DNA from: Plicaturopsis crispa FD-325 SS-3
Taxonomy: Eukaryota > Basidiomycota > Agaricomycetes > Amylocorticiales > Amylocorticiaceae
Assembly: GCA_000827205.1 (NCBI GenBank)
Contig: KN832563.1
Span: 754,863-818,862, forward strand
Direction of reading: 5' to 3'
DNA: 64,000 nt
Under the pieces are notes generated by a model. It made no database searches. It was not told the origin of the DNA and saw only the letters and a list, made by a program, of their open reading frames with translations. Numbering within the stretch: position 1 is the first letter of the stretch; each line of letters starts with the position of its first letter. Shown piece after piece: positions 31,125-63,202 of this stretch. The position numbers were made by a program, and so were the translations under genes.

Positions 31125-34100
31125 TCATAGCATTACAACGTCATCGTCCGAATCCCCCGCTGCTTTCGCGGCAGCGGACTCAGCATCCCTCGCCGCCTTC
31201 TTCCCCATCTCATCCCAGTGAACTGTGCGGCTCTCGTATATGTCGTAGTCGATGGTGTCTCTCGTCAAAAAGCGCCACACCTTGACGGTCTTCAGCTGTC
31301 CGTACCGCACCAGCCGCCCCACAGCCTGCGTCTCCGTTGCGTTGTACTTCTCCTGCGACGCCGCTAGCAGCGGTGACACGAAGATCGCGTGGTTCGCGGC
31401 CGTGAGGTTCGCCCCGCTCGCGCTTTCCTCCATCACGTTCAGCAGTAGGACACGCTCCGGCCCGTTCTCCTGGAACTTTGTCAGATTGCTGGACCGGGAG
31501 TTCGCGGAGCCTTTGAGCTCGAGGTAGGTGATCTTGTTGGCTATCAGCACTTCCTCGACTTTCTTCATGAGGTCCGGGAACTGCACGAAGATGAGGACGC
31601 GCTCGTCGGCAGGTAGTCGCTTTCTGGAAATAAAATCAGTATCCAGTGTAGGCGATATGTGATACGGCAGCGTAAAAACGTACTTGATCAACTTGACGAT
31701 CGCCTCCAGCTTGGCGCCGTAGTGTTTACCCTTCCCGGTACGTTCCACGTCGTCGACGCCGAGGTTCTTCGCCTCCACGATATACGTCACGCGCGCCGCC
31801 GCGCTGCAGATATCGGACTCCTTCGACTTCCTGCCCGTCTCGCCGTCCGTCGTCTGCTTCGCCAGCTCCGCCGTCTTGTACAAACACTCCTCCTTCGCCG
31901 CGCACTCCCTGACGTGTTTCGTGCATCCCATGTGCCCACAGGTAGACAGCACGGCGACCTCGTCATGCGGTATCTCTGCGTCCTCGCACATCGGACACGT
32001 CACGACGACAGACGCGCCCGAGCCCTTCTGCAAATTCCGCACGGCGGTGAAATACCGCAACGAGCGCACCCGCCCGACGAGCTCCTTCTCGAGCCTTCGC
32101 ATGATGTGCGTGTGCTCGCGCAGCGCCCACACTTTCTCCGCAGTCTTCTTGTCGAGCTCCTTCGGCTTGCCCGCCTGCTTCGCCCCCGCCTCGACGATGC
32201 CGGCTTTGTCGAACAGGACTTTGAGGAGCGCGGTGGCGTCCGCGTCGCCGGCCTTGCCGTCGAAGACCCAGCGGATCCATTCGCGCCAGGCGGACTCCTC
32301 CCCGGTCTTGCCGACGTCTTTCTCGAGCTTGAGCCCCTTCTTGAGGTGAGCGAGGATCTCGGCTTCGCACTCGTCTCGCTGCTTGGTGCGTTCGCGGACG
32401 ATGACTTCGCAGGCTTTCATGGAGTTGTCGGTTTTGCTGGTGTCGAGGTCGAAGTGGGAGCAGCGCTTCAGGAGGGCTTCCTCCGCGGTGCTGCCGTAAT
32501 GAAGGAAGGGGGTGTCAGCGGGGGCAAGGGGATGAAGGGAGAGGGATGGACGTACCTGCTATCACCTAGCGATTTGGCGAGCCGCCGCTCGCGGTCGCTT
32601 TCGTTCTTCTTGCTGCGCTTGATGGTCATGTCCATCGCGCGCAGGTGGTGCTCCAGCTCTAGGTACACGGCGCGTTCCGAGGCGGGCTGGACGATGTCCT
32701 CGAGCTCGATCTTCCAGTGGATCTCGTCGATCTCCGCGACATTCTGTGCGCGCGTAAGGAACACATCGACAGCCTTTCACACAGGAGATGAGACATACCT
32801 GACGAACGAAGCGGTCCAGGAACATCTGCCCGTGGGCATGTCGGTGCGCGTGCCATTCTAGACTGTGCACCTCGCGGAACGAATGGAACTTTTCAACCGC
32901 TGTAACGCCAGGTGAGTTAGTCGGGAATATGCACATCGAGGCGACAACGATAATCTTACCTGTCATATCTCTGCGCCGCTTCTTCACCTCCACCGACTGG
33001 CCCTCGCCGTCGTCGTCCACACCCAAGTGTATATCCAGGAACGCCGATATCGTCTTCAGCGCCGCGAAATCGTGCACGGGTGGGGTACCCGACAGCACCC
33101 AGTGCCTTTCCGCGCTCAGCTTGCTCACCATCGCGTAGATGATCCCCTCCAAATACGTGTACTCGTCCACGACCTTGCGCGCGAAATGGAACATATGGAG
33201 GGGCGGGGCGCGCATCTGCGTCCAGTCCGCGCGCACCTTCGCGAGCCCGAGCTGCCAGGGGTCGGTGTCCTCGCGGTGCTTCGGCTTTTTCTTGCTGGGC
33301 TCGGAATCGTCATCGTCGGCTTTGCGCTTCTTGCTCGTCCGTTTCGAGGGCGCGTCCACGTCCATGCTCTCGACATCTGAGCTGCCGGACGCCTGCGATT
33401 TGGACGCCTTCTTTGGCTTCGCGGCCTTAGGCTTAGCAGCGGCCTTGCCTTTCTTCTTTGGTTTTTCGTCCTCTGACTCCTCCTCTGAGGCCGGGGATGT
33501 TTGGAAGGCAGTGTCATCGGAGTCTGCGTCGTTCTCCGAGGACGGCAGCGGCCCCTCGTAGTCGCTGGACGCATCCGCGGCGTCATCCTCGTCATCCGAT
33601 ATGACGACGAGAGCTTTCTTCGCAGACGCACGGCGCTTCCGCGGTTTGGGCGAGTCGGAGGCCTCGTCCACGTCTACGGGCCCTTCGTCGGCAGAAGAAG
33701 ATGAGGCGCTGCGTTTTGGTGGAACTGGGATCACAACCTCCATCACAAGACCGGACGGCGAGCGCTGCTTTGACTTACTGGCCGCGGCTTCTTGGGTGGG
33801 TTTGTCGTCTTCGACCACGACAGCATCCCTGTACGACTTGCCTTTCTTTCGCTTCGAGGGAACGTCGACCTTGGCTATGGATTCATCCCCTGTATTCGTC
33901 AAATGTAAGCCTCGTGAGCATAGGGTATGAAAGCGGAAGATGTACCTCGTTCCCGGGCCTCGCGAACGGCCTTCTTGACCGCGGACGCGCCCTCGTCTCG
34001 CAGGCGATCGACTTGGTCGCCCAGAGAAGACATGACCTCGTTCAATCGGGCATTAAAGAACCGTCCGTCCGTTTGGGGGAGAGAGCCCGTCGCAGCTAGC

Positions 34101-37100
34101 GAATCAAGGTTCGCCATATAAGCTGCGCTCTTGAAGAGACTGGACGCGACAATGACGATGTCGACCTCTTGGAAATTCTCGATCGTCTGGTTGTTGAGCT
34201 GCGTTTGGGACGTTATCACGAGGTGCTTGAACCGCTTGCCCGTGAACTTGACGATCTCGGCCGCCCACTGTTTCGTCAGATGCGAGGGGACGACGACGAG
34301 CGTGGCCTTGAGCGGTATCTTGCCCTTCACGTCCTCCGTCTCCGCGAGCTCCTTCTTTACCTCCTTCGCAGCGCAGTCGATGAGACCCAGTGTAATGGCG
34401 GTCTTGCCGTACCCGACTTGGTCGGCGAGGACGCCTCCGCGTACGTGGACAGGCCTTTGAGCACGTCCCTCGGCACGCCACGCCAGTGGCTCTAGCGTGG
34501 CTTCTGCGATCTCCTCCTCAATGAAGGGCGCGATATCGCGCGCCTCCTGCTTCAGCATCCAGCTCAACGAGCGGAGCTGCTCCTTCCGGAGCGGGATCTT
34601 GAAATCGGGGGGCTGCTTGTGCTCGGGATCCAGCTTGTTGCTCGTGAGCCGGAATTTGCCCAGGTTCAGTTTGGCCATGGGGGAGAAGTCCGTGTTGAGA
34701 CGCCATGAGAGCAGAGCCTGTTCCGTCCTCCCCGTCGATGGCAGACGCGAAAGCGCGCGATGAAGCAGCGACGGGATGTTGATGCCAATACGGACATGCC
34801 CTAAGCCCTCTGCATCGAGCTTCAGCTGCGTCACGAAAGGCGTAGGACGACGCTTGAGCGCCCGCTCGAACTCTCCGGCCTGCACGGGGTCCTCGATGGG
34901 GACTATCTTGCCCTTGTGGTAGGCAAACTTCATCTCAGGGGGCGTAGGTGCGCAGCGTTGGCAGTTGACCTGATCAGGAGGGAGCTCGACGCTCTGCCAA
35001 TCTTTGAAATTGGCATCGATGTTCCGGATGCGCTCGGTGAGGAAGCCGAGGTTGCGGTAGGTCTCCCGCTCATGCACTTTGTCGATCTCACCCCACTCTT
35101 CGCGAGGCCATTCGGGTCCTGCTTGCCCGTGCAGATCAACTTTGCACGACAAGATGGCGTTCGCGCTGCCACAAGCGTCCAGAGAGGACTCCACTGTCAA
35201 GACCTCTCCGGGGACAGCGAATTGTGCCTTTTGGCCCTCCAGAGGCTGCGAGAAATCGTTAGCTTGAAGTACATATCCCGTGTAGAATGAGACTGCACCT
35301 TCAAAGCAACAGCATCCGTTTGAACCCACTTGTAGGGTATCTCACAGTCGATCTCCTGCGCATCCTTGACACTCGACTGACGCCACCGGGAATCGAGTTT
35401 GCACACGATGGGTCGTGTCTCACCGAATTCGTACCGTCGTTTGCTGATGGAGAAGACGAAACTGTCGTTCTCCCCTGCGCCACAACGGCTAGGATCGAGG
35501 AGCATGAACAACGGAGGCAGAGCCTCCTCTCCCGGCCCAGGAGTCCTCCTATGCAAGGCCGAGTTGGCCGTGCCGCACTTGTTGAGTAGCGTGTACACGC
35601 CAGAGATGTCGCGGTCGAATAGATCTTTCGCGTCGTGGCCATCCGGCACAGATATTTGCAGCTGGGAGTACACCATCCGATCCTTGAACTCCTCGCCAGT
35701 CAGGCCAAGGTCTTTCTCCCACGACGGTACGAGTGTCTGGGCGCCATTCTCGACGCCCGCGATCGTGATGGGCACGGTGCTGATACTTGGGAGTGCAAAT
35801 TCCCAGCGACCATCGAGTAGCCCACCCGCACAGGTAAGACGCGCTATCGGCATCTGCAGGACCTTGCGGAGTTCCGCATTTGCCGGAAGACTGGCTTCAG
35901 GCTTCGCGTATAGGCGCCACTCGGGCTGCTGGGGATGCAGGAGGAGCTCTAGCGAAGCCGTTGGGGACTGGTACACAGCAGACCAGATTTCCTGCCGCTT
36001 TGGCTCCACGAAGCGCAATTCGAGAGATGCCGCACGGATGACAGCGTCGGCCCAAGATGCCCATCGCTTCTTCGGGATGTCTACACCCGCTGCCTCTTTG
36101 AGCCCATCAAGGAGCTCCCGTGTAACAGTAGCTACACTAAGGCGCATCGGGAGAGCCGCCTTGAGCTCCTGCGCATATGCGGACGGCGGCGTGCGCTTCA
36201 CGGTGAGCGGCGCAAAATTGTGTTCCGGGCGACCGCCGCATTTCGTGCAGGAAGTGGCCCCGCAATCAGCGCAGCGGCGCACAACGCGTTCGGTCACGTT
36301 CTTCCGGCCCTCGCATTCACAAAGGCGTGCGCTGCGCTCGGCGTGAGCGAGCAGTGCTGGCAAAGAATGTGTAGTCGACACGGATAGGTCGAGCTCCTTC
36401 TCGTTTAGCTGATCCTCGCCCGCTATACGATCCTCGAGGGCAACGACGGTGGCCGCCCCGTCATCAACATCCATGGCATCATCATCGTGTGTACGCCCAT
36501 CGCTGGCTCCACTAGCATTCTTCTTCTCGTAGCTCTCCGTGTCATCACCGCCCTTGATGAGACTCTTGCCTGCGACAAGCGCGGCGAGGATGCACGCGCC
36601 AACGACAGTAGTCGACATTGCGTTCCCCGCAAGGTCAGCGAGCTGATCTTCCGTCTCACGTGTGAGAAGTAACGCGTCAACGGGTAAGCCCTGCATGGAA
36701 AGGGCTTCGATCCCGACGAGGGGCCCGCCGCGGTTCGTGATATACGGAATCATGGAGGGCGTGAGGCACGGGCAAATGCCTGCCTTATTTGAGCCGATGG
36801 TTCGGTCCACGTTTTGCGACAAATTCCAAACTTGTCTGTATGTTTATCTTGAGCAAGCGAGAATACGCGGTCAGGGGAAGGCAACGTACGTTTTATACGA
36901 CGGGTCGACGCCATTCTTCGCACTCCGTAGAAGGGAAATGTCCATGAGATCCCATACACGCTCGACTTGAGCTTTGCCCCAGTCGTTCCAAGCGAAATCC
37001 GGTAGCTTGCAGTTCCCACCTATACTTGCTATTTTAGTAAAACGCAGAAGAATGGCTAGTACGCTCACGAACCCTCATCCCATCCAGTGAGCGGCCGTTT

Positions 37101-38385
37101 CGTGCCAAGCTCCTCTTCGAGTCTCCCGCGTTGATGGCGCGACTCGCACTTTCCCCAGTCAGTGCGACCTGTGCGGCGGTCTAGTGCGTTGTACGACTCC
37201 TGCACCAGCTTCTCGCGGGACTGGTGAATGCGTGGATCGTCGGAGGGAAGAAGAAACGCGTCGAGCGCCGATGACGCAGGCCGCTTGAGCTGGTTCACGA
37301 CGATGTCCTTCCATTCGTTCGGGATGTCGGACTTCTTCTTGTTGACGGCGATGAGATACACGCGCGTGCGCGTGTGGGGGATGTAGTAGAACTTGGTATC
37401 GACGCGGTGGAAGGCGGCGCTGTAGCCTATGTCCTTGAAGTAACCCTCGACTCTTTTCCACGGTGCAGAGCAGACGTTCTCGAGGATGACAAGGGGCGGT
37501 TGATGCTTCTTGACCCATTTCAGCATGCCGCGGAAGGTTTGACCGGATTCACCGTTGCCGTCGATTTCTTGCTTCTTGTTGTTCAGGTTGGAATAATCCA
37601 CGCACGACGTGCCGGCAATGAGGATATCGACGTCACCGGGCACGGGTGCTTTGGCACCGTATGCCGTAGTGCTGAACGAAAACCGTCAGTAGCGGCGCGC
37701 ATGAAGACTGCGATGAAACATACGCCTCGTTTGCGCCAAGTTCACATACATCGCGAAACAGAAGAGGAGGGTGGAAGTTGCGTTCGATGTATGCTTGCTT
37801 AAAAGGCTCTATCTCGCACGAGAAAACGTGCTCGACGGCTAGATTTAAGCCATGCTGCTCGCGTATGGACTTGCAGATGAGGTCCAAAGCGAGGAGAGGC
37901 GACTCGGTGCCAGAACACATGGTGGCGACGCGTAGCTTACGCCCGTTTACGTGTTCCACCACGCCCTTTATCTTGGGAATATGGCTAACCATGTCGGCGA
38001 ACATTGCGGAGATGTCGTTTATGGGGGGTAGGTCGGATTCGTCTGGCGCACCGGTGGGTTTTGTCGTCTTTGCGACCGCCTTGGCCTTGCCCGATTTCTT
38101 CTTGGGTGCAGGTGCCTCGTCACTTTCTTCCGCTTCGCTCGCCTCCGTCTCAGCATCAGCCTCGCCTTCCTCGTCCTCGTCCTCTTCATCCTTATCCTCG
38201 CCCTTCTCCTGGTACTCGTCGTCGTCGTCGTCCGCCGACGCGTCGCCATCGCCGGCTATGTCCTCATCGTCCTCGTCGGGCTCTTTACGCGGAGCCTTGG
38301 CCTTTGGCGGCTTCGAATTTGGCGCCTTGAAGAAGGATGTGATGGACTTTTGGCCTTTAGCAGAGGATTTTGCCGCCTTTGCCAT
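31125..38385 (-). CDS. DNMT5: DNMT5-type DNA cytosine methyltransferase with Snf2 ATPase and RING
   Basis: ATP-dependent maintenance 5mC methyltransferase; in Cryptococcus the DNMT5 enzyme copies CpG methylation at hemimethylated sites. About 10 exons, roughly 2,200 residues. Order: PIP-like motif QKSITSFF (residues 12-19); Glu/Asp-rich tract (36-90); methyltransferase with motif I VATMCSGTESPLLALDLI (about 153-170), motif IV LIAGTSCVDYSNLNNKKQ, motif VI ILENVCSAPW, motif VIII TRTRVYLIAV and motif X GNAMSTTVVGACILAAL; a Cys-rich segment (CECEGRKN, CADCGATSCTKCGG); Snf2 lobe 1 with GGVLADQVGYGKTAITLGLI (Walker A), VDEYTYLEG (motif II) and HWVLSGTPP (motif III); RING CPMCEDAEIPHDEVAVLSTC with CGHMGCTKH; lobe 2 with ERVLIFVQF, MEESASGANLTAANHAIFVS and AVGRLVRYGQ. 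No chromodomain was seen. A disordered charged insertion of about 220 residues splits lobe 1. The start gives MAKAAKSSAKGQKS. Confidence 0.93.
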
Positions 38386-42917: not shown

Positions 42918-43707
42918 GCCTCGCCACTCATCATCACCTCATCTCTGCATATATACGTCCCATTTGCTCATATCACATAAGTACCACCTTTCCTTTGTTT
43001 TCTTTTCCTGTTATCCATGCGCATCGTCCTCGTGTCTCCGTCTTTTCATTGCGCACATATGTTCTCTCATCTGCATATTCACATGGTGGGTAGTACCATT
43101 CCGTCTCAAGGACGTCCATACATCTAGCATCTGTTCATCTGCGTACACTGGTAATATGCAGTACTTCTCAGTATCTACAGTACCTAGTTACTCCGCTATC
43201 TAATTCTAATTTATTCCGCACGACTTTGAATGAGAGCTTGCCGAATTTGAAGTTCGCATGCTTTAGCGCCGCAAATGAAGGTAGTTTCGCCTGGAGAGTC
43301 ATCGTCATGTTTATCAAGAGCAATTTTACTATTAAAGGCCTACCACTGTATGGCGCCTCGCGCCCTCAGTCCTCAACGCACGTGCGATTATATAGGTTGT
43401 CCATGCAACCGACGATTATAATCGACGAAAGGTTTGCTTTATATTTGTTGCCATCCAGATAAGTGGAGGCCAGTTTTGTACATTGTTGCTAATTGATATC
43501 CTTGTCATACAAAGGATTGCTGACCGTTTCCTTTTCCACCAAAGCCCAAATAAAAGGAATAAATCTACGAAAGCCGCTGGCCAAAAGTCCAAGAGCAAGA
43601 TAGATAAAGTGTTAATGAAATGAATGGGGATCCGTGCGGGATGAATGCCCTCCTTGTACGAGGGTTTGTTGCTTGCGTGGCCGAGTTGATCGGAACGCCA
43701 GTTGCTC
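42918..43707. other. Intergenic region between convergent genes
   Basis: About 790 bp. The right part, from about 43450, is similar to the sequence downstream of the second laccase (48590 onward) and marks the left border of the duplicated unit. No gene. Confidence 0.45.
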
Positions 43708-45675
43708 TCAGAGCTGGTCGGGAGTGAGCGCATCGTAGATGGGGCACAAGTTCGACCACGAGGCGGGGACAGGGTTGGCGGACGCGGTGTCGTTGATGTC
43801 CTCGGCGAACACAATGGCGAACCCGGCCTCGAGATGCCAGTCGATGTGGCAGTGGAGGAACCACGGCCCAGGGTTGTCCGTGGTCCAGCGGATGGTGACG
43901 TTGTCGCCAGCCGCACCGATGCTCACGACGTCGCGGCGGACAGGGTTGGCGTAGTTGTACGTCGTGCTACCTGCGCTGCGCACGACATCGAAGGTGTGGC
44001 CGTGCAAATGGAAGGGGTGCTGTCGCAGAATGTCTACATTAGACTACGAATAAAATGTGAGGCAATAGGAAGACGTACAGGACCGCCGGCGACGCCTGCA
44101 GGCAGCGAAAGCTCGATAACCTTGTTCGACGGGAGACTGTACAGTGACCCGGAGGGAAGAAGGTCAGCGGCCGTCTGGGCGCCACTGAGGATCTGCAGAA
44201 GGACGGGGACAGTGGGTGAAGTCCAAGTAGCGCCGTTGATGGTGAAGTCGAGGTTGGTGGCATCGAACACCAAATTGAGGTTCAGAGTTACATCCGCACC
44301 GCCGATTTCCGCGGTACCAGGAGCACCGGGATTCTCCAATGGCTAATCAAAGATTCAAGGGTCAGATGTAAAACTGTGACGCGGTCCGTGAAATGTTCTC
44401 ACGTGAAGGTCAAGTTCGCTCATGGGAATGACGCTGGTTGTCTGGTTCGTGGTAGGGTCTGCGGTTGCGTTGGCGCCGCTATAGCGAAGGATAGCCGAGT
44501 TGATCCCTCCTTCGAATCCGGTAGAACCCAAGTTGGGGTTCGCACGAATCCAGTAGTTGTCGACAGCCTCGCTAGCATCAAGCTGAAGAGACTAGGTTAG
44601 TAATTATCTATTTTGTCAAGGAAATGTGATTCACGATGAAAGAATAACGCTGCCCCGCGAAAATCTGGATCTCATCGACCACGACGGGATCAATGTTAAC
44701 ACCGTCGACCTCAATGATGGTAAGGTTGTGCCCGTCGATGGAGAACGTGAAGTTCGGGTCGCACGAGATAGATACGAGGCGCATGCGGTATCTCTTGCCT
44801 TTCTCGACGCCGATGACGGAAATGTCGGAGGACGGACCTCCGACGTAACGACCCAGACCATTGATCAGGGTAGAGTCAGCGGTAGGGAATGCGCCGGCAC
44901 TGGGAGCAGGGGTGTGGTACCTAGAATGCAAAATATCATTAGAAGTGAAAGCATGCAATCGGGAGGATGTATTCTTACCAATCGGCGAGGACGATAACAG
45001 TTGACTCGTCGTCAACATCGTACAGACTGGCATGTGGGTCGTTAGGGTCGTACACAACGAGAGGACCCCTTAGACCATCACAGTACTGTGTCGAGAGATG
45101 GGAGTGATACCAGAATGTGCCTGTGAGCAATAAAGTCAGTCATCAATTTATAGTGGCTATGATAATCAAAAAATTCATTACCCGCTTGGTTAGGGACGTT
45201 GAAGTCGTACAGGAAGGAGTTGTTTGCGGCTATGGGACATTGATTGACAAATGCCGGCCCATCGGCCCAGTTAGTACCGGCTTGGAAGAAACCGTGCCAA
45301 TGCTGCAGAAATATGATGAGCTCTTGTGATATTTCAGGAGGGTATGGTTAACATACAATCGAAGTGCTCCTAAGCATAGTGTTGTCGGTGAGCCCGTCAA
45401 TGACGTTGATTTGGAAGTTGGCTCCTTTGTTGCCGGTAATGAGTGGACCGGGGAAGACGCCCTCAGCGAGGACGGCCCTACAAAATGAACACGAAACGCG
45501 ATGAGTGTTCAGGAAAATATTGTGCAAGAGGTGAACGGTGACCGTACGATCGACTGAAGCCATCGGGACTGATGTCTGCGTTCGCGATATTCAAGTCCGT
45601 GACAGGGCCTATAGCAGCGAAGACGGTTCCAGAGACCGCTAACGCAGCGACGGATAAATACTGGAGGCGAGACAT
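43708..45675 (-). CDS. Secreted laccase, copy A
   Basis: Extracellular multicopper oxidase (EC 1.10.3.2) that oxidises phenols and lignin fragments while reducing oxygen to water. Signal peptide [20 protein letters not shown], with the mature protein likely starting [20 protein letters not shown]. Copper motifs: L1 [16 protein letters not shown]2 [20 protein letters not shown]3 [12 protein letters not shown] and L4 [16 protein letters not shown]. The residue 10 positions after the L4 cysteine is Phe, which in known laccases goes with higher redox potential. N-glycosylation sites such as NNS, NAT and NQT are present. About nine exons, with introns at sites typical of Polyporales laccases. It ends DALTPDQL. 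The core promoter has TATAAA about 100 bp before the start. The protein is a close paralogue of the laccase at 48865-50814. Confidence 0.96.
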
Positions 45676-45776
45676 TGGACAGAATGAGAGAGCGAATGTG
45701 TCGACAGCAAACTCCAGGAGATGACCGCGAAAGCCTGCAAAACTGGATGTTAAAATGCATGGCATGCATAGAGGCC

Positions 45777-45782
45777 TTTATA
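45777..45782 (-). promoter_or_regulatory. TATA box of laccase A
   Basis: TATAAA on the minus strand 102 bp before the ATG. The surrounding TATAAAGGCCTCTA is identical in laccase B at the same distance (105 bp). Confidence 0.7.
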
Positions 45783-47716
45783 TGTGTCTCGAGATGCCCC
45801 CAGAGAGGCACGTATGCATGCCAGTCGTCACACAGTTCACCGTCCGGTTGGGAAGCGAGGCACAACAAGCCGGCTGGCGTCCGATGTTCGTGGATCGGTG
45901 CCGATGATCATTATTTGCGAATGAGGAGTACGGCATTCCAACTTCAGGAGGAGTAGGTACGGAGATGCCGCGCGGAGGTAGGGCCAGTAAGTCCCAGGCC
46001 CTGGAAAAACTGATAGATGTGTTCGAGGGGGGAGGACGGCGGAGAAGTGACACAGGTGCGCAGGCACCTCATCCCCGACGGTAAAGTCTATGGGTGTACC
46101 TATCGGTCCAATCAAATACCAAGTGAACACTGCGTAGATCCGCTCAGCTGCACTTTCGAGCAATTAAGTACAACGGACGAGATTGGACGAGACTTACACG
46201 AAAGTCATCCTGTACGTTAGAGAAGAGGCACACTGCGTATGATCCACTAGAAACTCCGTTTGCTGAGAAATAGGGAAGAGAGACACTGAATGCGCACCTA
46301 CAGCGTAGTTAAAAAGTTGTGTGTGAACTTCATGGCGCCGGAGTAGTAAGCACCGATTTTCGCTGCTTTCTGCTCAGGGCAGCAGTCTCACTGCACACGG
46401 CTAGACCTAGCTCTAGTCAGCAGCATCTACACAATGAATGAGGAACAGCGCACTGTTTGATATGCCTGAGGTTGGGCCAAAAGGAAAAGGACGAACTTGA
46501 ACTTGGACGGAAACTGAGATTGCAGGGCTCCGGACGCCGCGGTCGTAGTACACGTGGCCCTGAAATGATCGCCAAAGCTTTGTTTGCTTCCGAACAAGTC
46601 CCATCATTGCCCGTCGCAGCGTCAATTATGGCTCGGGTACGATGTATGTTCAGTGTGTTGTGAGTCCGTTTTCTTGCTTTCAGACAGACCGTATAGACGA
46701 TACTGACGATGGACGCGCACTGAATGTGCGAGTACGCAGTCAAAATGGATCGGCGGAAGTCACCGTGGTAGTACTATGTGCTCTCGCTCTCGGGCTCGGA
46801 CGCCGGCGGTCCCATCGATTTAATTGACTGCCATCTTAATGATCAGACCGTGGATTAGGCGGACCTTGCCGTTGTTGGCGTCTACGGAACCGCGATCCTC
46901 GTGGTAGCGCTTTGACCCTTTCGATTTGCGTTCGATAGGCAAATTCGAAGTAGAGGCCGTCGTACCACGCAAGCGGCCCCGTCACCAATTCAGTGAGTAG
47001 TGCATCATGAGGGACTGTATGTGCCTGCTCTTGGGACGTCTTTGTGAGTCATTTCTTGCCCATCGTGACATTGTTGCACTCTCAGGCGGGCTTCAGTGTC
47101 CCCCCCGCGCGCGCCCTGTGGACATCCTGGATCACACGCGTACGTTCGGTACCGAAACGCACATTCGCCCACGCCCTAGAGATAAAGCTTCGCCGATCAA
47201 ATACGCGGAGTTGCCGGTTCCTCCTGGATCAAAAACGTCATCTCGGAAAGTACAAGATGCGATGTGCATTCCAGTTGTCATTGTCATTGGCCAATCATTA
47301 ACATTGAATTGACTTCAGGCTACGAGACCTCCTAATCACTACAAACATCCGTATGGGTGTACTACATGTAATGGTCTGATCTTTCCTGCTTTGTTCCTGC
47401 CAAAGATGCTGACACACACTATGTCCTCCGCAGTTCCCATCGCCATTTATCTCACCACCGGCCCCCACTTCTAGATGCTTACCGCAATCCATCTCCGAGC
47501 ACTCTTGCATCGCCAGGTCCCCGCTAAGTCCCTGTGCCAGTAATCCCTCATCATACCCAGGGCCGCATCCTCGTCCGCCGCCTAATTCCGCGCCAAAACC
47601 TTGACCATCGTTCCTGGAGAAAAGGCATCCCCTTGTCACATTATCACGAAGTCGGCCTGCAGTAAGCAGACGTACGTGTGCCGGGTCCGATGGTCTCCCC
47701 TGTGCTGTGGGTCAGA

Positions 47717-47722
47717 TATAAG
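47717..47722 (+). promoter_or_regulatory. TATA-like element of peptide gene A
   Basis: TATAAG lies 97 bp before the ATG at 47814. The paralogue has TATAAG 94 bp before its ATG. Shared sequence and spacing support a real core promoter for both small genes. Confidence 0.55.
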
Positions 47723-47813
47723 CTGCTCCTGTACTGATGAGAGAGTGCGATAGAAACTTTCTACCTCAATAATTTCCTCGTCGCTCAAACCCCCACCTGC
47801 ACTCTCGTTTGCA

Positions 47814-48083
47814 ATGCTTCTTAAGCCCGTCATCTTTGCCGCCGCCCTTGCAGGTGCGGTCAGTGCGCAAGAGTCGCAGTCCAGGGTGTGTAGTATCCTG
47901 TCGTGCGTTGTGTTCAACGATTCACTTACGCGCAATGGCATACTTTAGCAACACGGTCCACCCGGGACTAGGACGTTCACTGCGACCAAAGTGTTCAACA
48001 CTGTCGTCCCATACTCCCCCTACCTAACTCAGGTCACGGAGACGACCACTTGGACACAGTTCCCTCCTGCCAAGTCCTCTTAA
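47814..48083 (+). CDS. Small secreted cysteine-free peptide, copy A
   Basis: Two exons, 47814-47885 and 47949-48083, encode 68 residues. The signal peptide is MLLKPVIFAAALAGAVSA, with likely cleavage before QESQSR. The mature peptide is about 50 residues with no cysteine: a GPPG turn, RTFTATKVFNTVVPY, SPYLTQVTETTTWTQFPP, ending AKSS. The intron is phase 0, right after SQSR, in exactly the place used by the paralogue at 52525. Both the exon structure and the protein are conserved while the flanks have diverged, which argues for a real coding gene. I do not recognise the family. The Thr/Tyr/Pro-rich mature part suggests an extended secreted or wall-associated peptide. Its position divergent from a laccase is repeated in copy B. 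Confidence 0.8.
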
Positions 48084-48864
48084 ACATGCTACGAGTGTTG
48101 GTAAGCCTTATGCGTTTCATGTCATACCCATCTTTGACCGTTATTTGAAGTTATGGCCCACATTGGGAGTATGTTTGAAAGGCGCAGTCAACTCCAGCGG
48201 TGCATCTATTTTGAGTCGGGTCGATGACGGGGTAGTACCAGCGTACTACCGCGCGTCAGTTGAATACAAAGTCGGAATATCAATCTTTTAAGCTGTATGT
48301 AAAGCCTGTAGGGGCTGGATGTCGAATCGAAGTCAATGTCGACTTTGACGTGCACGCAAGCTTTCAATCGTACCGTAGGCACTTCTCATTAGGCTTACAT
48401 TGAAGCCACTCGGAGTCTCTGACGATAATCACTGCAATCATGCCATCACATTCTTGTGCGGATACAACTAGTCTCCTTTAGCAGCCGTCGAAACAATTCC
48501 TTCAACCTCGCGGGCTCGGATATCCTTCAACACCTCTTTGTACTTACGTTAACTCCAGTCCAAACTAAATGAAAGCTCTCCTAAAATTCGGCCATCCATA
48601 CTACGGAGGCTAATCCTACATGAGTAGAGGTCGATTGATATCCTTGTCATACAAAGTATCAAGCCACATGCAATAATTGTGCGATAGTGTCCTTTTCCAT
48701 CAAAAGCCCAAATAAAACGAATAAATCTACGAAACTTCCGCTGCCCCGAAGTCCAAAGCAAAGTAGAGAAAGTGCCTATGCAAATGAATGGTGCTCCGTG
48801 CGGGATGTGAGCCCTTCTTCGACGAAGGTATGAGATCGGGGGCCGAGGCTGAACCCGACGCCAA
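48084..48864. other. Spacer between the two duplicated units
   Basis: About 780 bp. It contains the junction between copy A and copy B, near 48100-48590. No gene; the right part from about 48590 belongs to copy B. Confidence 0.4.
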
Positions 48865-50814
48865 TTAGAGCTGGTCGGCGGTGAGCGCATCGTAAGTGGG
48901 GCACAAGTTCGACCACGCGTCGGGAACGGGGTTTGCGGACGCAGTCGAATTGATGTCCTCGGCGAACACGATCGCGAACCCAGCCTCGAGATGCCAGTCG
49001 ATGTGGCAGTGGAGGAACCACGGCCCGGGGTTGTCCGTCGTCCAGCGGATCGTCACGTTATCGCCCGTGGTACCGATGCTGACGACGTCGCGGCGGACGG
49101 GGTTGGCGTAGTTGTACGTCGAGCTGCCGGCGCTGCGCACGACGTCGAACGTGTGGCCGTGCAAATGGAAGGGGTGCTGCGAGAGAATGTCTAGGTCAGA
49201 CCGGGGAGAGACAAGGTTGTAGAATATAGACGTACAGGACTACCCGCGACACCTCCAGGCAACGAAAGCTCGATAACCTTGTTCGAGGGGAGGCTGTATA
49301 GCGACCCGGAAGGAAGAAGGTCAGCGGCAGCCTGGGTGCCACTGAGGATTTGCAAGAGGACGGGGACGGTGGGGGATACCCAAGTAGCGCCGTTGATGGT
49401 GAAGTCGAGGGCAGTGGCATTGAACTGGAAGTCGAGATTGATCAAGACGTCAGCACCACCGACCTCTGCGGTACCAGGAGCTCCGGGGTTTTCCAGTGGC
49501 TAGTAGAAAAAAGGTTAGTTGTAACACGACAATCCATCCCGGGAAATGCCCTTACGTGAAGGTCAAGTTCACTGAGGGGAATCACACTGGTAGTCTGGTT
49601 CGTAGTAGGCTCTGCGGTCGTGTTGGCACCGCTGTAGCGAAGGATGGCCGAGTTGATTCCACCGTCGAATCCGGTGGAGCCCAAGTTGGGGTTCGCGCGA
49701 ATCCAGTAGTTGTCGACATCCGCGCTGGCATCAAGCTGCAGAGACTAAGTTAGATTTTTCCGCCTCCAAAACGATAACGAGAAACTTACGACGAAGGAGT
49801 AGCGCTGGCCGGCAAAAATCTGGATTTCATCGACCACGATGGGATCAATGTTGACACCGTCAACCTCGATGACGGTCATGTTGTGGCCGTCGATGGAGAA
49901 CGTGTAGTTCGGGTCGCACGAGATAGAGACGAGCCGGATGCGGTATTTTTTCCCCTTCTCAACGCCGATGACAGCAATGTCGGAGGACGGTCCTCCTACG
50001 TAGCGACCCAGACCGTTGATCAGGGTAGAGTCAGCGGTAGGGAATGCGCCGGCACTAGGAGCTGGTGTGTGATACCTAGAACACAACAATAGTCAGGAGG
50101 GAGAACATGCAATCCGGATCGTGCATTCTTACCAATCGGCCAGAGCAATGACGGTGGTCTCATCATCAACATCATACAGGCTGGCGTGTGGGTCGTCGGG
50201 GTCATACACAACGAAAGGACCCCTTAGACCGTCACAGTACTGTGTCGAGAGATGGGAGTGATACCAGAATGTGCCTGCGCCAAGTCAATAGGTTACGCAA
50301 GCAGGATAATAACGAAGTTAGTTACCCGCTTGGTCCGGGACGTTGAAGTCGTATAGGAAGGAGTTGTTGGCGGCTATAGGGCATTGGTTGACAAATGCGG
50401 GACCGTCGGCCCAGTTACTACCCGCCTGGAAGAAACCGTGCCAATGCTGTAGATTTAATTTTCATTAGCAGCCATATATCACGAGAGCTGTTTTAGCTCA
50501 CGATCGACGTGCTCCTAAGCATAGTGTTGTCGGTTAGCCCGTCGACGACATTGATCTGGAAGTTGTCGCCTTTGTTTCCTGTGATGAGCGGACCAGGAAA
50601 AACGCCCTCGGCAAGGACAGCCCTACAAAATTTGCATAGTGAGCGTTCAAGAGAAACACGGAGCGTTTAGAGAATCAGATGCTTACGAGCGACTGAGGCC
50701 GTCGGGACTGATATCCGCGTTGGCGATATTCAGGTCGGTAACCGGTCCTATGGCGGCGAAGACGGTTCCGGACACGGTCAACGCAGCGATAGATAAATAT
50801 TGAAGACGAGACAT
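48865..50814 (-). CDS. Secreted laccase, copy B
   Basis: Close paralogue of laccase A with the same exon layout. Signal peptide and mature start are as in copy A (ending [10 protein letters not shown]). Copper motifs: [47 protein letters not shown] and [16 protein letters not shown], with the same Phe after L4. Differences are scattered and conservative: GTNWADG versus GSNWADG, VPNQAG versus [25 protein letters not shown] versus [12 protein letters not shown] versus DALTPDQL. All copper ligands are kept, so both copies should be active. The core promoter has the same TATAAAGGCCTCTA element. Different upstream spacing leaves room for different induction. Confidence 0.96.
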
Positions 50815-50918
50815 TGGGTGAACTGTGGGATAGCGAATGTGTGGAGGGCGGACTTAGACGATGGCCACGAAGGACCTGGACAGCTATATGGAAAAATGCA
50901 TGTCCACGCGTAGAGGCC

Positions 50919-50924
50919 TTTATA
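50919..50924 (-). promoter_or_regulatory. TATA box of laccase B
   Basis: TATAAA on the minus strand, 105 bp before the ATG, inside the TATAAAGGCCTCTA stretch shared with laccase A. Confidence 0.7.
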
Positions 50925-52430
50925 CATCTCTGTCGATCCGAGAGTGTAGCAACAACGCAGTCGGGAAGCGAAGCCCAACACGCCGGCTGTCCGATGCTCG
51001 TGCGGCGGTACCGATAATCAATAGTGACCAATGAACCATGCGACATTTGTTCAGGGAGAGTAGGTACGCGTATGCCATGGGGAGGGCAGGATTAGCGTGG
51101 CCCAGGCCCCCGAAGGATTGGTGTATTCGAACGGGTAGAGCGGACGCCGGGGAAGTGAGACAGATGCGGTGGCCTGTTCATCCCCGGGCAAGCAGAGCCA
51201 TACACCTGATGAGACATCAAAGGGAACTACTGCGCAGTCCCGCTAAGCTACATTTTGCGCATACTTGCAACGGATTGAACTCACGATAAAGTACATATTT
51301 TACGTTTAGGAAGATACATCCTACATGCATTGCAATTGGAAGTCCATTCAATCTGAGAAACAGCGACGAGAGACGACGATCACACACCGACTGCGCCGCA
51401 GTAGAAAGTTGCGATCTTCGCAGCGAGTTGAGCAACGGTAAGAAACAGCTTTCGCTGCAATCTGCATTCTCGTCGCGCTCCTTGTGCTCTGGTTCTAGTG
51501 AGCGGCATTCAGAAACTGAAAGATGATACCTTTTTCTCGTTCGTGTAAACGTGGAAAAAGGGAAAAATAATAAACTTGTTGAAATTGAAGTTCAGCTTTG
51601 AGATTGGAGGCCCCGGACAAGCCCCGGACGCCGCGGTAACCCTGTTCACGTGGCCCTGAAATGATCGATTTACGCTTTTTTGCTCCCGAACGGGTTCACA
51701 GCTTGTTCACAACTCAAAGTTCGCCGCAGCATCAGTAGCAGGCATCAGTAGCTTGAAAACGACATAGTCCTGTCGAAATGCGTTGCGGGTTCGTTTCATT
51801 TTGTCTCCTAACCAACGTATGCTAATAGCCAATTGGCGATGCGTCTACTGTAGTGGGCGCGTGCGCAGTCAACTGAGTAGCAGAAGGTCGCATTCAATGG
51901 CACGGAGCTCACCGCCGCTCCCACTCTCGGACGCCGACGGTTCTATCTATTGACTGCGAAGTCAATGATAAAGCTGTGGCTTAGCGGACGGCGGACTCCC
52001 GAGCTCGACCGAGCCGCGATCCTCGTGGTCGCAATTTGACCCTTTCGATAGGTCAACTTGAAGCTTGGCACTGTAGGCAGCCGTCGTACAACACCATCTG
52101 TGCAATACTCGGGTACATGTAATAATCTGATTTCTCTTGCCCATCATGTTGAGATGCATTATGTTTTCCGCAGTTCAGGAGTAACTCTTGTCGCCATCTC
52201 TCTCACTACCCGGCGCCCACTATTCGACGTTGACTACGCCATGCGCGCCCTTGCATCGCTATGCCCTGTGCACCTTACTGCTAACTACGGCCGCAATCCC
52301 GTGCGCCGCCGCACCGAAACCCTCTCGTTCCTGGAATAATGCCTCACCTTGCCAGAATATCACGCATTCAGCCTGTTTGTAATCAGAAGCGCGTGTGTCG
52401 GCTGATCTGTTCCCCTGCACCGTGGTAGGT

Positions 52431-52436
52431 TATAAG
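52431..52436 (+). promoter_or_regulatory. TATA-like element of peptide gene B
   Basis: TATAAG, 94 bp before the ATG at 52525, matching the element before peptide A. Confidence 0.55.
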
Positions 52437-52524
52437 GCTTCTCCTTACTGACGAAGTCGAGATAGAAACTTTCGACCTGAACGAATCTGCTCGACGCCCA
52501 AACCAAAACCCGCACTCGCTCGCT

Positions 52525-52801
52525 ATGCTTTTCAAGCCCCTCATCCTCGCCGCCGCCGTTGCCGGTGTGGTCAGCGCCGAAGAGCACTCGCAGTCCAGGG
52601 TATGTTTCGGTCGTGGTGCTTTTGCGTGTAACGATGTATTGACGCGCACTGGGCATACTACAGCAGCCTGGCCCGCCCGGGACGAGGACGTTCACTGCGA
52701 CGAAAGTGTACAACACTGTGGTCCCGTATCCCCCCTACCTGACGCAGGTCACGGAAACTACCACTTGGACCCAGGTCCCTCCTTCCGGGTCCCCCAAGTA
52801 A
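52525..52801 (+). CDS. Small secreted cysteine-free peptide, copy B
   Basis: Two exons, 52525-52599 and 52664-52801, encode 70 residues. The signal peptide is MLFKPLILAAAVAGVVSA, followed by EEHSQSR. The mature part reads QPGPPGTRTFTATKVYNTVV, PYPPYLTQVTETTTWTQVPP, SGSPK. Compared with copy A, the core RTFTATKV-[FY]-NTVVPY and YLTQVTETTTWTQ are unchanged, while the ends and the signal peptide vary. This is the pattern expected of purifying selection on the mature core. No cysteines, no dibasic processing site, no CaaX end. Family not recognised. A role with the neighbouring laccase (stability, wall attachment, shared regulation) is only a hypothesis from synteny. Confidence 0.8.
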
Positions 52802-53450
52802 ACGCACTATGAACCCAGGTAAGCTCGCTGTGGATCAGATCAGGTCCATCGCTGACCGCGATGCGAACTGTGCAGCGCGTTAACAAGATCTTCGGGGGCG
52901 ATGGCGGTCGATGCAGCAGTGTACTTTGTGTTAAATTCTTTCTCCACAACAACAACATTACACTCTTTCTTTCTTTCTTTTGTGGGGCTTTGGGTGGATC
53001 TGTGTCGCAAGACCTTTGGCCATTCATACAATAGTGGATCCTGATATATGACCTTAACCGGTGCTCATTGTCGTTTTGAGTCAATTCCAATACTTTCGAT
53101 CTGTGCAGTTGTAAGGCTACTCATCGCCGCAAGCTTGTCCTTCAAATTTATTGATCCATGGGCAGAAAATCGATATCTGGCTGGACTGTGCTCCCGACTC
53201 GTACGTTTGCCTACAAGAGATCGACTATGTGGCAAGCGAAATCATTATTGAAAGCGTACAACAGGCGAACGGAGAAGGCATACTCGGCGACGTGCATAGA
53301 AAGTCCAGGCCAAGTCGTCGTCGTCTAGATCTGAAGGACGGGAACAAAGGAAAACGTTCATAATGATCAAAGCGAACCCAAGAAAGTGTGTCCCTCGCAG
53401 CTATCCGTAGAACGTGAATCGGTGGCTCGAGAAACTACGAGATAAGTGCT
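52802..53450. other. Intergenic region, no supported gene
   Basis: About 650 bp between peptide B and the 3' end of the zinc-cluster gene. Contains a short TTTC microsatellite near 52966-52980; nothing else recognised. Confidence 0.4.
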
Positions 53451-55081
53451 TCAAGGATTGTTCTGCTGCTCCTGCGGGGGCTGCTGCTGCTGCTGCTGCT
53501 GTTCCTGCTGCTGTCCCGGCTGCTGTCCCGTCTGCTCCTGCGGAGTACCGACCCGCTCGGAGGATAGCACGCGGCCTGGACCAGGCGGATCATCAATGCT
53601 CGGGTCGATGACAGGGAGGTACGCAGACCGTGCGTCAGACGTATACATGGGATTCGGGTGCATGCCAGGGGGTGGCTGCATGCCTGGAGGCGGTTGCATG
53701 CCTGGCGGAGGCTGCATCCCAGGGGGCGGCTGCATCCCTGGTGGCGGTTGCATCTGGCCAGGGCCAGGTGGGCCGGGCATGGGTGGTCCGTAATATGGGT
53801 GTGGGTACATCGGCGGATACCCCATGGGGTGCATAGGAATACCTCCATGCATAGGCATGCCTCCCTGCATCGGGCCTCCGTGCATGGGACCTCCATGCAT
53901 AGGAGGACCTCCATGCATGGGCGGACCGCCCTGCATCGGACCTCCTTGTTGATACTGAGGCGGAGGAAGGGTAGAGGATGATGCTTGGGCGTTCATATCT
54001 GCGGAGAGATCATCTATATGGTCTTGTTAACGAGGCCCTACAGATGAGAAGGACAACGTACTGTCTTGGTCGGATGTGGCGTCTGGAGCTCTGCGATGCG
54101 TGCATTCTAATTCTTGCCCCTTCTGTGTGCATGCTTTACATGCTCGATCGAGGCAGTCGTAGCCTTTGCGGGAGCACGAGCCGCACGGTCGGACACCGTC
54201 ACACCTAATCTTGTCGCGTCTAAGGGATAGTGAGCGTCATATATGGCTAAACAGCGGTAGAATATTTACCTGCAGTTTGTGCAAGCCGCTTTGACACGGG
54301 TACCATGACCTCTACCCTTTCTCGCAAGGTTGATGCACTCAAACCCTTGTTCGATGCATGACTTGCATGGGCGCATATCCTCGCACTTCTTATTATCCTT
54401 CCTACACGCCTCACAACGCAGCTTGACGAGCTTCGGCCCGCGCCCGACGTGTATGCATTCTTCCGAGCGCGCTACACAGCGCTGGCAGGGGCGGGTGTCG
54501 TCGCACTTCTTGTTGTCACGGCGGCAGTTCTGACATGCGAGCTTGGCGCGGTCGTTGGCCCTAGCACGAGCGCTGCGGGAGATAGGACGGGCTGCAGATA
54601 CGTCCTGGCGGGGCGGAGGCGTGCTTGGCTCTTCCATGCATTCGAGCTGCATTTCTCTGCATCTTGCGCATGGTTTGCCGTCCTCACACCGTACGCGCGC
54701 GCGCCGACAGTGTTCGCAACCGTCGATGCATTGATCGGCGGTGTACCCCTTTTTCACACAACCGCTGCATGGCCTAGCTCAGACGTCAGCATTGGAGCTA
54801 TGTCAAACAAGGCTGTCTCATTGACATACCTGGCGCCATCGCATCTGATTTTGTCACGTCTGGTACAAAGATTAGAAATCGTCCCCTAATGCTCAAGAAA
54901 ATTCGCACCTGCAGCTGGCGCACGCCTGAGTGTTCCCCCATGTTCAATTGGACTTCAAGTACGAATAAAAGTCGTACGAACACACCTTTGACGCTCTCCT
55001 TGGCCATGGAGGCCCTCCAATGTCGGAAGCCGGAGCAAACGGTGGCAATGGTGGCGGAAACGGAGGCGGCTGAGAATCCAT
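53451..55081 (-). CDS. Protein with five tandem Zn2Cys6-type clusters
   Basis: The start is MDSQPPPFPPPLPPFAPASD. Five binuclear-cluster motifs follow: CASCRRDKIRCDGARPCSGC ending TADQC; CEHCRRARVRCEDGKPCARC ending QLEC; CQNCRRDNKKCDDTRPCQRC ending SEEC; CEACRKDNKKCEDMRPCKSC ending GFEC; CTNCRRDKIRCDGVRPCGSC ending GYDC. The last is followed by a half-site CKACTQKGQELEC. The usual Gal4-type regulator has one. Introns split the first and fifth clusters at the same codon (CR/R, phase 2). The C-terminal part is low complexity: about seven GGPM(H/Q) units, five MQPPPG units and a Gln-rich end. No fungal transcription-factor middle domain was seen. Likely nuclear and nucleic-acid binding, inferred. 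About six exons. Confidence 0.8.
53661..53756 (-). repeat. 18-bp tandem repeat coding MQPPPG
   Basis: Five imperfect 18-bp units inside the last exon of the zinc-cluster gene, each coding MQPPPG. Third positions differ between units while the peptide is constant, so the protein repeat is maintained. Confidence 0.8.
53820..53950 (-). repeat. Gly-Gly-Pro-Met-His coding repeat
   Basis: Imperfect units of 12-15 bp coding GGPPMHGGPMHGGPMQGG-like sequence in the same exon. Variable unit length suggests slippage. Confidence 0.7.
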
Positions 55082-60369: not shown

Positions 60370-63202
60370 ATGGCCTCGCCGGCGAAGCTGAGAAAACGGA
60401 CGCCCGCGCAGGGCACTAGCAATCTACCTGACCTCGACCAAACTGACGACCATGTTTCCGCAATATTCACGTCCCCGGTACGTGTCACGTCCACGCTCAC
60501 CGAATCCACGCTCATCGTCTCTGCAGAACAACAGGAGCACTCTAGAAAAGATACTAGACACAGAGAGGGCTAGTGTGGCAGTCGTTGTCACTCTTACGCT
60601 TCTTGCCCTCGCGCTGCGATTCTACAAAATCAACCACCCAGACCAAGTCGTGTATGTTCATTTCGCACCTACCTCACGCGATTCATGCAGCTCACGCGCT
60701 ATAGGTTCGACGAGGTTCATTTTGGCAAATTCGCATCGTATTATATTCTGCGCGAGTACTACTTCGACGTTCATCCACCTTTCGCGAAATTGCTTTTCGG
60801 TCTCGCGGGTTGGTTCGTTGGATTTGACGGCCACTTCTCGTTCGAGAATATCGGTGACAGCTACACGGAGAACCACGTTCCTTATGTCGGCATGCGTGCC
60901 CTGCCCGCCATACTCGGCAGTTTCACCGTTCCTGTTGTTTTCGCGATCATGAAGGAGAGCGGCTACTCGACCGTTATTGCCGCCTTCTCCGCGTTGCTCA
61001 TTGTTTTTGGTGTGTCGCCTTCCCTACACGTCATGAACAGCTCGCTGAAAGACTACCAGACAACGCCCATGTTGCCCAGTCGCGCCTCATTCTTTTGGAC
61101 GCGACGCTGATATTCTTCATGTCCCTCACGATTTACTCCTACATCCGCTTCCGTAAACTACGCTATTGGTACGTGTTACACGTTATTCATCTCCTGTATC
61201 TCGCGTTAACTCTCCGCCAGGGAGTTCACCCCGGAATGGTGGGCCTGGCTCGTCGCGACGGGCGTCTTTATGGCATGCACGTGGGGGTCGAAGGTCAACG
61301 GTATCCTCACTGTCTTCACCATCGGCATCGCAGTGTTGATCGATTTGTGGGATATCTTGGACATCAAGAAGGGCTATTCGATGGTAAGGTTCTTTGTGCT
61401 CTTCATGTGGCGCATCCTAACAGCCCCATAGGAAGACTTCTGGAAACGCTTTGGGGCCCGGGCAGTAGGCTTGATCCTTGTGCCCTTCATCATATACCTG
61501 TCCTTCTTCTACATTCATTTCTCCGTCCTGACGCATTCGGGCACGGGTGACACATTCATGAGCCCGGCGTTCCAGGAGACGTTGATCGGAAACGAGCTAC
61601 TCTTGAACAGTCAAGGTATGGGTCACGCGTTTCCGCTCTCGGTCCGCCGACTAATTGTCCGATCTAGAGCTACGATACTACGACACGGTCACGATCAAGC
61701 ACAAGGATACGAAAGTATTCCTGCACTCGCATGTTGAAAGATACCCCTTGAAGTACGATGACGGTCGCATCAGCACCCAGGGTACTTGCTTTCTCTGTTT
61801 GTGATGGTGCACGCTAACCTCCCTACAGGGCAACAGGTCACCGGCTACGGACACGCAGACACGAACAACGAGTGGCAACTCATCCCAACAAAGGCATTGC
61901 CTGAGACCGGACGCGGCCGTATCATACGGCACAACGATGTTATCCAGCTGTTGCATGTCAACACGCAGACGGTTCTGCTCACCCACGATGTCGCGTCGCC
62001 GCTTATGCCTACGAACCAAGAGTTCACGACTTTCCCCAAGGACGACTTCTCGCGCCACAACGACACGCTATTCCAGGTGCAGCTCGTTGATGGTGGCGAG
62101 GGGGAGGCATGGAAGAGCAAGTCGGGTCACTTCAGGCTTGTGCATGTGCCAACGAAGGTTTCGCTGTGGACGCATCCTGGACAGCTCCCGGAATGGGCTT
62201 TCAAGCAGCAGGAAGTCAACGGCAACAAGAACCCGAGCGAGAAGACTGCGACGTGGTATGTCGACGAGATCATCTCCGATGAGTGTACGTGGCAAATACC
62301 GAACGCGTTAGAACTCCTGCTCATTTTACTTTTCTTTGTAGCTGGCGACGATTTCAAGAACCGCACGGGCGACTCGAAGCCGAAAGAGCCCAAGAAGATG
62401 AATTTCTTCAAGAAGTTTGGGGAGCTGCAATTGCTGATGCTTCAACACAATGCTGGGCTCACGGCGTCGCATCCCTACGCCAGTAGTGCCATCAACTGGC
62501 CATTCTCACTCACCGGCATCAGTTTCTGGACGGAGAACGACTCGCAAAAGCAGATATATCTCGTCGGCAACATCATCGGATGGTGGACGTGTGTCATCGC
62601 GCTCTCAATCTACATCGGAATCGTCGGTGCGGACCTCCTAGCTAGGCGCAGAGGATTTGATCCTATCCCGGATGGTCAGTATCTCCTCATGAATTGTCGC
62701 CACGTAAGTGTTTGCTCATCCCTTTGTAGAAGTACGCAATCGCCTCTGGAACTCTGCAGGATTCTTCCTCCTTGTCTGGGCCGTTCACTATTTCCCATTC
62801 TTCCTCATGAACCGCCAGCTGTTCATCCACCACTACCTGCCGTCGCACCTCGCGTCTGCGCTCGTCGCCGGCGCGGTCCTCAACTTCGTCCTCTCGGAGA
62901 CCATCAACTACCCAGTCTCGATCGCCGGCCGCGAGACAAAGAGGAAGCCACGAACATACTCCGACCTGGGAACCAAGGGCCCCATTGCCGTTGGCGTCTT
63001 CGCCGTGATATTGTTCGCCATGTTTGTGTACATGGCTCCTCTCACCTACGGTACTCCAGGGTGAGTAAGTTCTCCGTACAGGCTGGGAATCCGCTGACGT
63101 ATTTGACTGGACAGGCTTGACGGGGAGACGGTCAACAGCAAGCGGTTGCTTTCGACGTGGACCCTCCACTTTGCTGCTAAGAAGACTGCAGAGAGTGTTT
63201 GA
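60370..63202 (+). CDS. PMT4: Protein O-mannosyltransferase, PMT4 type
   Basis: ER membrane enzyme transferring mannose from dolichyl-phosphate-mannose to Ser/Thr of secretory proteins. After a short cytosolic N-terminus (MASPAKLRKRTPAQGTSNLP) come FDEVHFGKFASYYILREYYF, with the catalytic D-E, then DVHPPFAKLLFGLAGWFVGF, LPAILGSFTVPVVFAIMKES and AHVAQSRLILLDATLIFFMS. The central loop has three MIR motifs (YDTVTIKHKDTKVFLHSHVE, NDVIQLLHVNTQTVLLTHDV, SGHFRLVHVPTKVSLWTHPG). C-terminal helices include LQHNAGLTASHPYASSAINW and FFLLVWAVHYFPFFLMNRQL. The EVHFGKFAS and ETKRKPRTYSDLGTKGP signatures point to the PMT4 branch, which favours membrane-anchored substrates. About ten exons. It is flanked by two sorting-nexin genes. 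Confidence 0.94.

Follow-up and report, generated by a model that had tools for sequence, protein, structure and literature searches.

Why should a laccase gene be accompanied by a small gene for a secreted peptide, and why should the two stay together through a duplication? The question is raised by a stretch of 64,000 nucleotides of the basidiomycete Plicaturopsis crispa FD-325 SS-3 (contig KN832563.1, positions 754,863 to 818,862 of the forward strand; the whole of it is called the window below). There the minus strand carries two laccases, lacA and lacB, each of which faces a two-exon gene on the plus strand, pepA and pepB, in the order lacA, pepA, lacB, pepB. This arrangement had been described in a first-pass annotation, which suggested that the pair is the functional unit. 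The coordinates prove correct, and the observation is confirmed in a form stronger than the one originally stated: the whole unit results from a single old tandem duplication, and all four genes are intact under purifying selection.

Local alignment of the two units gives a match of 77.8% identity over 2580 columns and another of 75.5% over 482 columns, together with two blocks in the middle and, at the 3' end of the laccase, a match of 26 bases. Because homology begins at that 3' end and extends as far as the stop codon of the peptide gene, the repeated unit is the laccase together with its divergent peptide gene. In a global alignment, laccase exons are 86% identical (1341/1552) and the seven laccase introns 59% (233 of 393 aligned sites); exons 1 and 2 of the peptide gene are 85% (61/72) and 83% (112/135) identical, and its intron 59% (37/63). 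Differences at fourfold sites are alike in both genes, 96 of 254 in the laccase and 12 of 37 in the peptide, as expected from joint duplication. Intron positions are kept as the annotation had claimed, the seven laccase introns, all GT-AG, lying at identical places, and the single coding intron of each peptide gene (63 and 64 bp) following the same codon. So is the spacing of the TATA-like boxes, which, counted by eye, start 97 and 94 bases upstream of the ATG in the peptide genes and 107 and 110 bases upstream of it in the laccases. The spacing between laccase and peptide gene is long, 2138 bp in copy A and 1710 bp in copy B, while pepA and lacB lie tail-to-tail with 781 bp between their stop codons.

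The laccase gene models were spliced by hand. The two proteins are 91% identical, differing at 46 of 517 residues, and lacA, used as a query, is similar along its full length to laccases of solved structure, finding 33 PDB sequences at E <= 1e-100 (best 1.7e-271), one of them named Coriolopsis gallica laccase; the annotation spoke of Polyporales, with which these hits are in keeping. The patterns of the copper-binding signatures L1-L4 are all present in both. Laccases sensu stricto are marked, in the available part of a published account, by Phe or Leu as the axial T1 residue, Asp at position 205 and two disulphides (PMC10741624). In lacA as in lacB the axial residue, 10 positions beyond the T1 Cys, is Phe, Asp205 lies within SCDPN, and the five Cys (85, 117, 204, 451, 486) amount to the T1 residue plus four, which would make two disulphides. 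Judged on their residues, both carry every tested mark of a laccase sensu stricto. Nonsynonymous (dN) and synonymous (dS) divergence between them is 0.047 and 0.62 by NG86, with dN/dS between 0.05 and 0.08 across methods.

The peptide genes are much smaller. Exon 1 is signal-peptide-like and exon 2 encodes 44 or 45 residues; the predicted signal peptide is of about 18 residues, cut after VSA (both judged by eye), and the mature product would weigh about 5.5 kDa by residue count. Each mature peptide has 11 Thr, with 6 Pro in the 50-residue form and 9 in the 52-residue form, and no Cys at all. Two familiar kinds of small secreted fungal product were considered and rejected. Hydrophobins carry eight conserved cysteines, and neither mature peptide has any; Kex2-processed repellent or pheromone-like peptides have dibasic cleavage sites between repeated units, and no KR, RR, RK or KK was seen by eye in either. 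Beyond the stop codon, exactly 17 nt away in both copies, comes a GTAAGC donor, followed in both by a branch-point-like word, TGACCG; the two outline a candidate intron of the 3' untranslated region (UTR), which the annotation had missed, as it had the length of the intergenic regions.

That these short frames are translated and maintained is indicated by how they have changed. NG86 gives a dN of 0.11 and a dS of 0.50, and dN/dS lies between 0.19 and 0.23 for the whole frame by three methods, between 0.19 and 0.39 for the mature part. Changes at the three codon positions number 10, 5 and 20 of 68 (Fisher p 0.0016), and both length differences between pepA and pepB are of three bases. When the same 35 nucleotide changes are placed at random, 22 amino-acid differences are expected on average, against 13 in 68 aligned codons, and only 1 of 5000 simulations goes as low; in a core of 37 residues there are 3 replacements where about 11 are expected, a value reached in none of the 5000 simulations. 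Since both dN/dS and the simulations place replacements below random, the peptide is, on this codon evidence, a real protein-coding gene kept by purifying selection in both copies.

Its distribution is narrow. Single-protein searches of the 33.2-Mb genome, which score only the best candidates in an assembly that may be incomplete, find the peptide at two places only, each beside a laccase; an extra match on C16 has 32% identity and an E of 0.39, its sequence is unsupportive by eye, and a larger family in this genome was therefore rejected. Three domain searches reveal at least six multicopper oxidase genes, lacA, lacB and four others (on C32, C13, C9 and C4) with about 44-50% identity to lacA over the matched parts. 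No recognisable copy of the peptide was found near any of these four in the 10 kb fetched around each, and a profile search covering the window as well as those regions recovers the known copies at 5e-33 and 7e-32, with nothing else better than E 0.24. Pfam has no family for it at E <= 10, and PDB sequences give no match better than E 0.4, those to fibronectin (E 0.4) and to an adhesin (E 2.1) being at chance level. Viral and prokaryote collections returned 36 and 33 pattern matches respectively, none confirmed as a relative. Strings from the peptide core have no match in full-text literature, and titles and abstract openings yielded no laccase-linked small secreted gene.

As for its shape, AlphaFold2 predicts a beta-hairpin for exon 2 of both genes, with a mean predicted local distance difference test (pLDDT) score of 83.9 for pepA from a two-row alignment (strands 8-19 and 26-37) and 82.5 for pepB from a single sequence (strands 8-21 and 24-37). 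Pairing deduced from the strand limits is the same in both, i + j = 45. One face would then hold T9/T36, T11/T34, T13/T32 and T30, and the opposite face F10-W35, K14-E31 and F/Y16-V29, plus T18, T27 and T33, with a PY-x-PY motif, both tyrosines of which are the same in pepA and pepB, at or beside the predicted turn. The peptide is thus predicted to be a cysteine-free hairpin of about 30 residues opposing a Thr-rich face to one with an aromatic pair and a Lys-Glu pair. A fold search with this hairpin returned 201 matches at E <= 10, none at E <= 0.001, the best E being 0.89 among the best 50 of the 201, a result that is uninformative for a lone hairpin.

Between the divergent genes, the promoter blocks mentioned in the annotation are indeed kept, as exact words of 13-21 bases common to both intergenic regions. 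Along copy A, in windows of 100 bp, the 400 bp nearest the laccase are 66-72% identical, the middle stretches 46476-46675 and 46776-46975 are at 63-78%, the window 47376-47475 is at 73% and the 240 bp nearest the peptide are at 68-77%; the remainder is mostly at 50-59%, and some 400 bp in copy A have little or no counterpart. The 21-mer CACGTGGCCCTGAAATGATCG matches the genome in the two units only, allowing up to three mismatches (reversed control, 0 matches), as does the 16-mer CCGCGATCCTCGTGGT with at most one mismatch (reversed control, 1 match). At E <= 0.01, a middle region of 481 bases matches nothing beyond itself and the other unit; not being found outside the two units, the middle blocks were rejected as a dispersed repeat. 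Nine regulatory motifs were scanned by consensus, and sites aligned in both copies comprise two CreA-like, two NIT2-like, one STRE and one CACGTG, numbers not weighed against chance. CGGNNNCCG was discarded as a zinc-cluster site, with 27 occurrences in the window for 24 expected and thus no overall enrichment. The longer CGGACGCCGNCGGT has 2 matches where 0.17 are expected, and 5 of the 7 window copies of CGGACGCCG fall in the two intergenic regions, both post hoc counts on partly homologous sites. The conservation of these elements suggests shared control of laccase and peptide.

What, then, might the pair do? The best explanation of the whole, which we hold at just under an even chance, would be that a single, ancient tandem duplication copied a divergent pair made of a laccase sensu stricto and a small secreted peptide. 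Both genes of the unit would be switched on together through the intergenic elements they share; the peptide, predicted to be secreted from its signal sequence, would leave the cell with the laccase and, at the hyphal wall or sheath, act next to it, where it might bind the enzyme or wall polymers, or supply tyrosines for the laccase to oxidise. Of the functional unit proposed at the outset, the two-gene repeat, the coding peptide selected in both copies and the conserved intergenic elements all stand. Action of the peptide on or with the laccase does not follow, as co-duplication and then separate selection explain the same facts. The functional unit is accordingly plausible, at rather less than an even chance, and is equalled by a rival reading in which the two genes are linked and selection retains each on its own account.

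Several observations weigh against a working partnership. The peptide evolves faster than the laccase, under a less tight constraint, and for its signal-peptide part alone constraint is not significant (1277 of 5000 simulations as low). AlphaFold2 may give hairpins for any short sequence rich in Thr and Val. The middle blocks stand 855-1263 bp from the laccase start in copy A and 810-1237 bp in copy B, and 876-1284 bp and 474-901 bp, respectively, from the peptide start; the distance to the laccase being better kept, the blocks may serve the laccase alone. In the laccase 3' flanks (43480-43707; 48620-48866), 169 of 222 aligned sites agree (76%, far more than the 59% of introns), so that the region shared by the two genes is not alone in its raised noncoding identity; with this and the distance pattern, shared control is only suggested. 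Among the motifs scanned, MRE, XRE, ACE1-like, CCAAT and ARE, which include the metal-, xenobiotic- and copper-factor-like ones, have no site aligned in both copies. Furthermore, laccases sensu stricto are described, in the available part of the source, as normally monomeric (PMC10741624).

The strongest competitor, to which we also assign a probability somewhat below one half, makes the two genes mere neighbours. The peptide would have an extracellular role of its own, as a wall component or as a surface or antimicrobial peptide; it would have been duplicated through adjacency, with each gene selected separately and at most a common timing of expression. All the divergence and constraint measured here is also expected if this is so, and the separate TATA-like boxes, the wide intergenic spacing in both copies and the four other detected multicopper oxidase genes, which manage without the peptide, fit it. 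It sits less easily with the survival of both peptides intact while introns fell to 59%, given that 3145 of 5000 randomly mutated copies gained a stop codon, or with the fact that each peptide stayed with its laccase and that no copy away from a laccase was found in the genome. Laccases oxidise tyrosyl groups, and another proposal, which we consider improbable, is that the peptide is itself a laccase substrate, the tyrosines of the PY-x-PY tip and other aromatics being oxidised and cross-linked into wall, sheath or a melanin-like polymer: both tyrosines are invariant and their predicted place at or beside the turn would suit that role, but this invariance rests on two sequences. Finally, frames so short, with relatives found neither in Pfam nor in the PDB, viral and prokaryote collections, might be untranslated and conserved as regulatory or RNA sequence (or be there by chance), a reading rejected, as very improbable indeed, on the codon-position pattern, replacements far below random, length differences of three bases and a 59%-identical intron between exons at 83-85%.

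Known systems offer partial parallels to the partnership. Heterodimeric laccases are judged rare in basidiomycetes, Agaricus bisporus and Pleurotus having them (PMC3129051, in the part available). Novel laccases (NLACs), which are heterodimeric with a small subunit, occur in Agaricales and Russulales and are absent from the Polyporales studied, and the POXA3-type small subunit is reported to raise enzyme stability and activity (both from the accessible portion of PMC10741624). By the NLAC marks, Leu as axial residue and Arg at 205, lacA and lacB are not NLACs, since they carry Phe and Asp205. The small subunit of POXA3 type known from Pleurotus is, by analogy, the nearest known idea for the peptide, in that it too is a small protein whose gene shares a genome with that of a laccase-like enzyme; it is, however, a glycoprotein of 16-18 kDa, against about 5.5 kDa for the mature peptide. 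A crystal structure of that subunit has reportedly been obtained, and its PDB entry was not identified in the comparison with the peptide, which gave nothing better than E 0.4. Laccase paralogues also lie close together elsewhere: on chromosome VI of Pleurotus ostreatus six of them occupy 82 kb (PMC3764117), and in Pycnoporus cinnabarinus about 23 kb separate lac1 from lac3 (PMC4101180). Here, by contrast, the repeated unit has two genes, and a co-duplicated peptide gene is not mentioned for those clusters in the available parts of the two reports. The pair also resembles divergent co-regulated fungal gene pairs, head-to-head with conserved elements between, except that 1.7-2.1 kb exceeds a typical shared core promoter.

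Coordinates are collected in Table 1, with those of a few other features of the window. The methylase and Helicase_C stretches may possibly belong to one long gene (31128-37685, minus strand), which would be of a DNMT5-like kind. A low-complexity frame, tail-to-tail with pepB, has no Pfam match at E <= 0.001.

Table 1. Positions, within the 64,000-nucleotide window, of the laccase and peptide genes, their associated elements and other features
Feature	Position	Strand	Remarks
lacA	43708..45675	-	517 aa; spliced model, PDB laccase matches, L1-L4 motifs
lacA exons (8)	45548-45675, 45357-45477, 45182-45302, 44979-45120, 44635-44920, 44403-44582, 44079-44342, 43708-44019	-	
pepA	47814..48083	+	coding segments 47814-47885 + 47949-48083; 68 aa, mature 50 aa
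Candidate 3'-UTR intron of pepA	48101..48150	+	GTAAGC...AG
lacB	48865..50814	-	517 aa; spliced model, L1-L4 motifs
lacB exons (8)	50687-50814, 50502-50622, 50326-50446, 50133-50274, 49790-50075, 49556-49735, 49236-49499, 48865-49176	-	
pepB	52525..52801	+	coding segments 52525-52599 + 52664-52801; 70 aa, mature 52 aa
Candidate 3'-UTR intron of pepB	52819..52875	+	GTAAGC donor
Conserved intergenic block 1, copy A	46530..46571	.	CCGGACGCCGCGGT + 21-mer CACGTGGCCCTGAAATGATCG
Conserved intergenic block 1, copy B	51624..51667	.	same block as copy A
Conserved intergenic block 2, copy A	46795..46938	.	CGGACGCCGGCGGT, CCGCGATCCTCGTGGT, TTTGACCCTTTCGAT
Conserved intergenic block 2, copy B	51926..52051	.	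same block as copy A
Helicase_C stretch	31128-32558	-	E 1.5e-6
C-5 cytosine DNA methylase stretch	37068-37685	-	Pfam E 1.8e-14
Low-complexity frame	53454-54026	-	rich in Pro, Gln, Met, Gly; PPPGMQ repeats
Protein O-mannosyltransferase, partial	61762-63117	+	PMT_4TMC + MIR domains

Laccases are among the best-studied secreted enzymes of fungi, and the reason why a fungus has several of them, and with which extracellular partners they work, is unsettled. It is a doubtful but consequential prospect that normally monomeric laccases sensu stricto would have here a dedicated secreted beta-hairpin partner (a binding partner, a wall anchor or a substrate for cross-linking) held with them in a heritable two-gene unit. 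If this were true, a peptide travelling with a laccase gene would be a direct handle on these questions: a product of about 5 kDa could be deleted, added or labelled, and laccase stability, location and choice of substrate read out. It would matter as well for the production of laccases in foreign hosts, where the partner would be missing.

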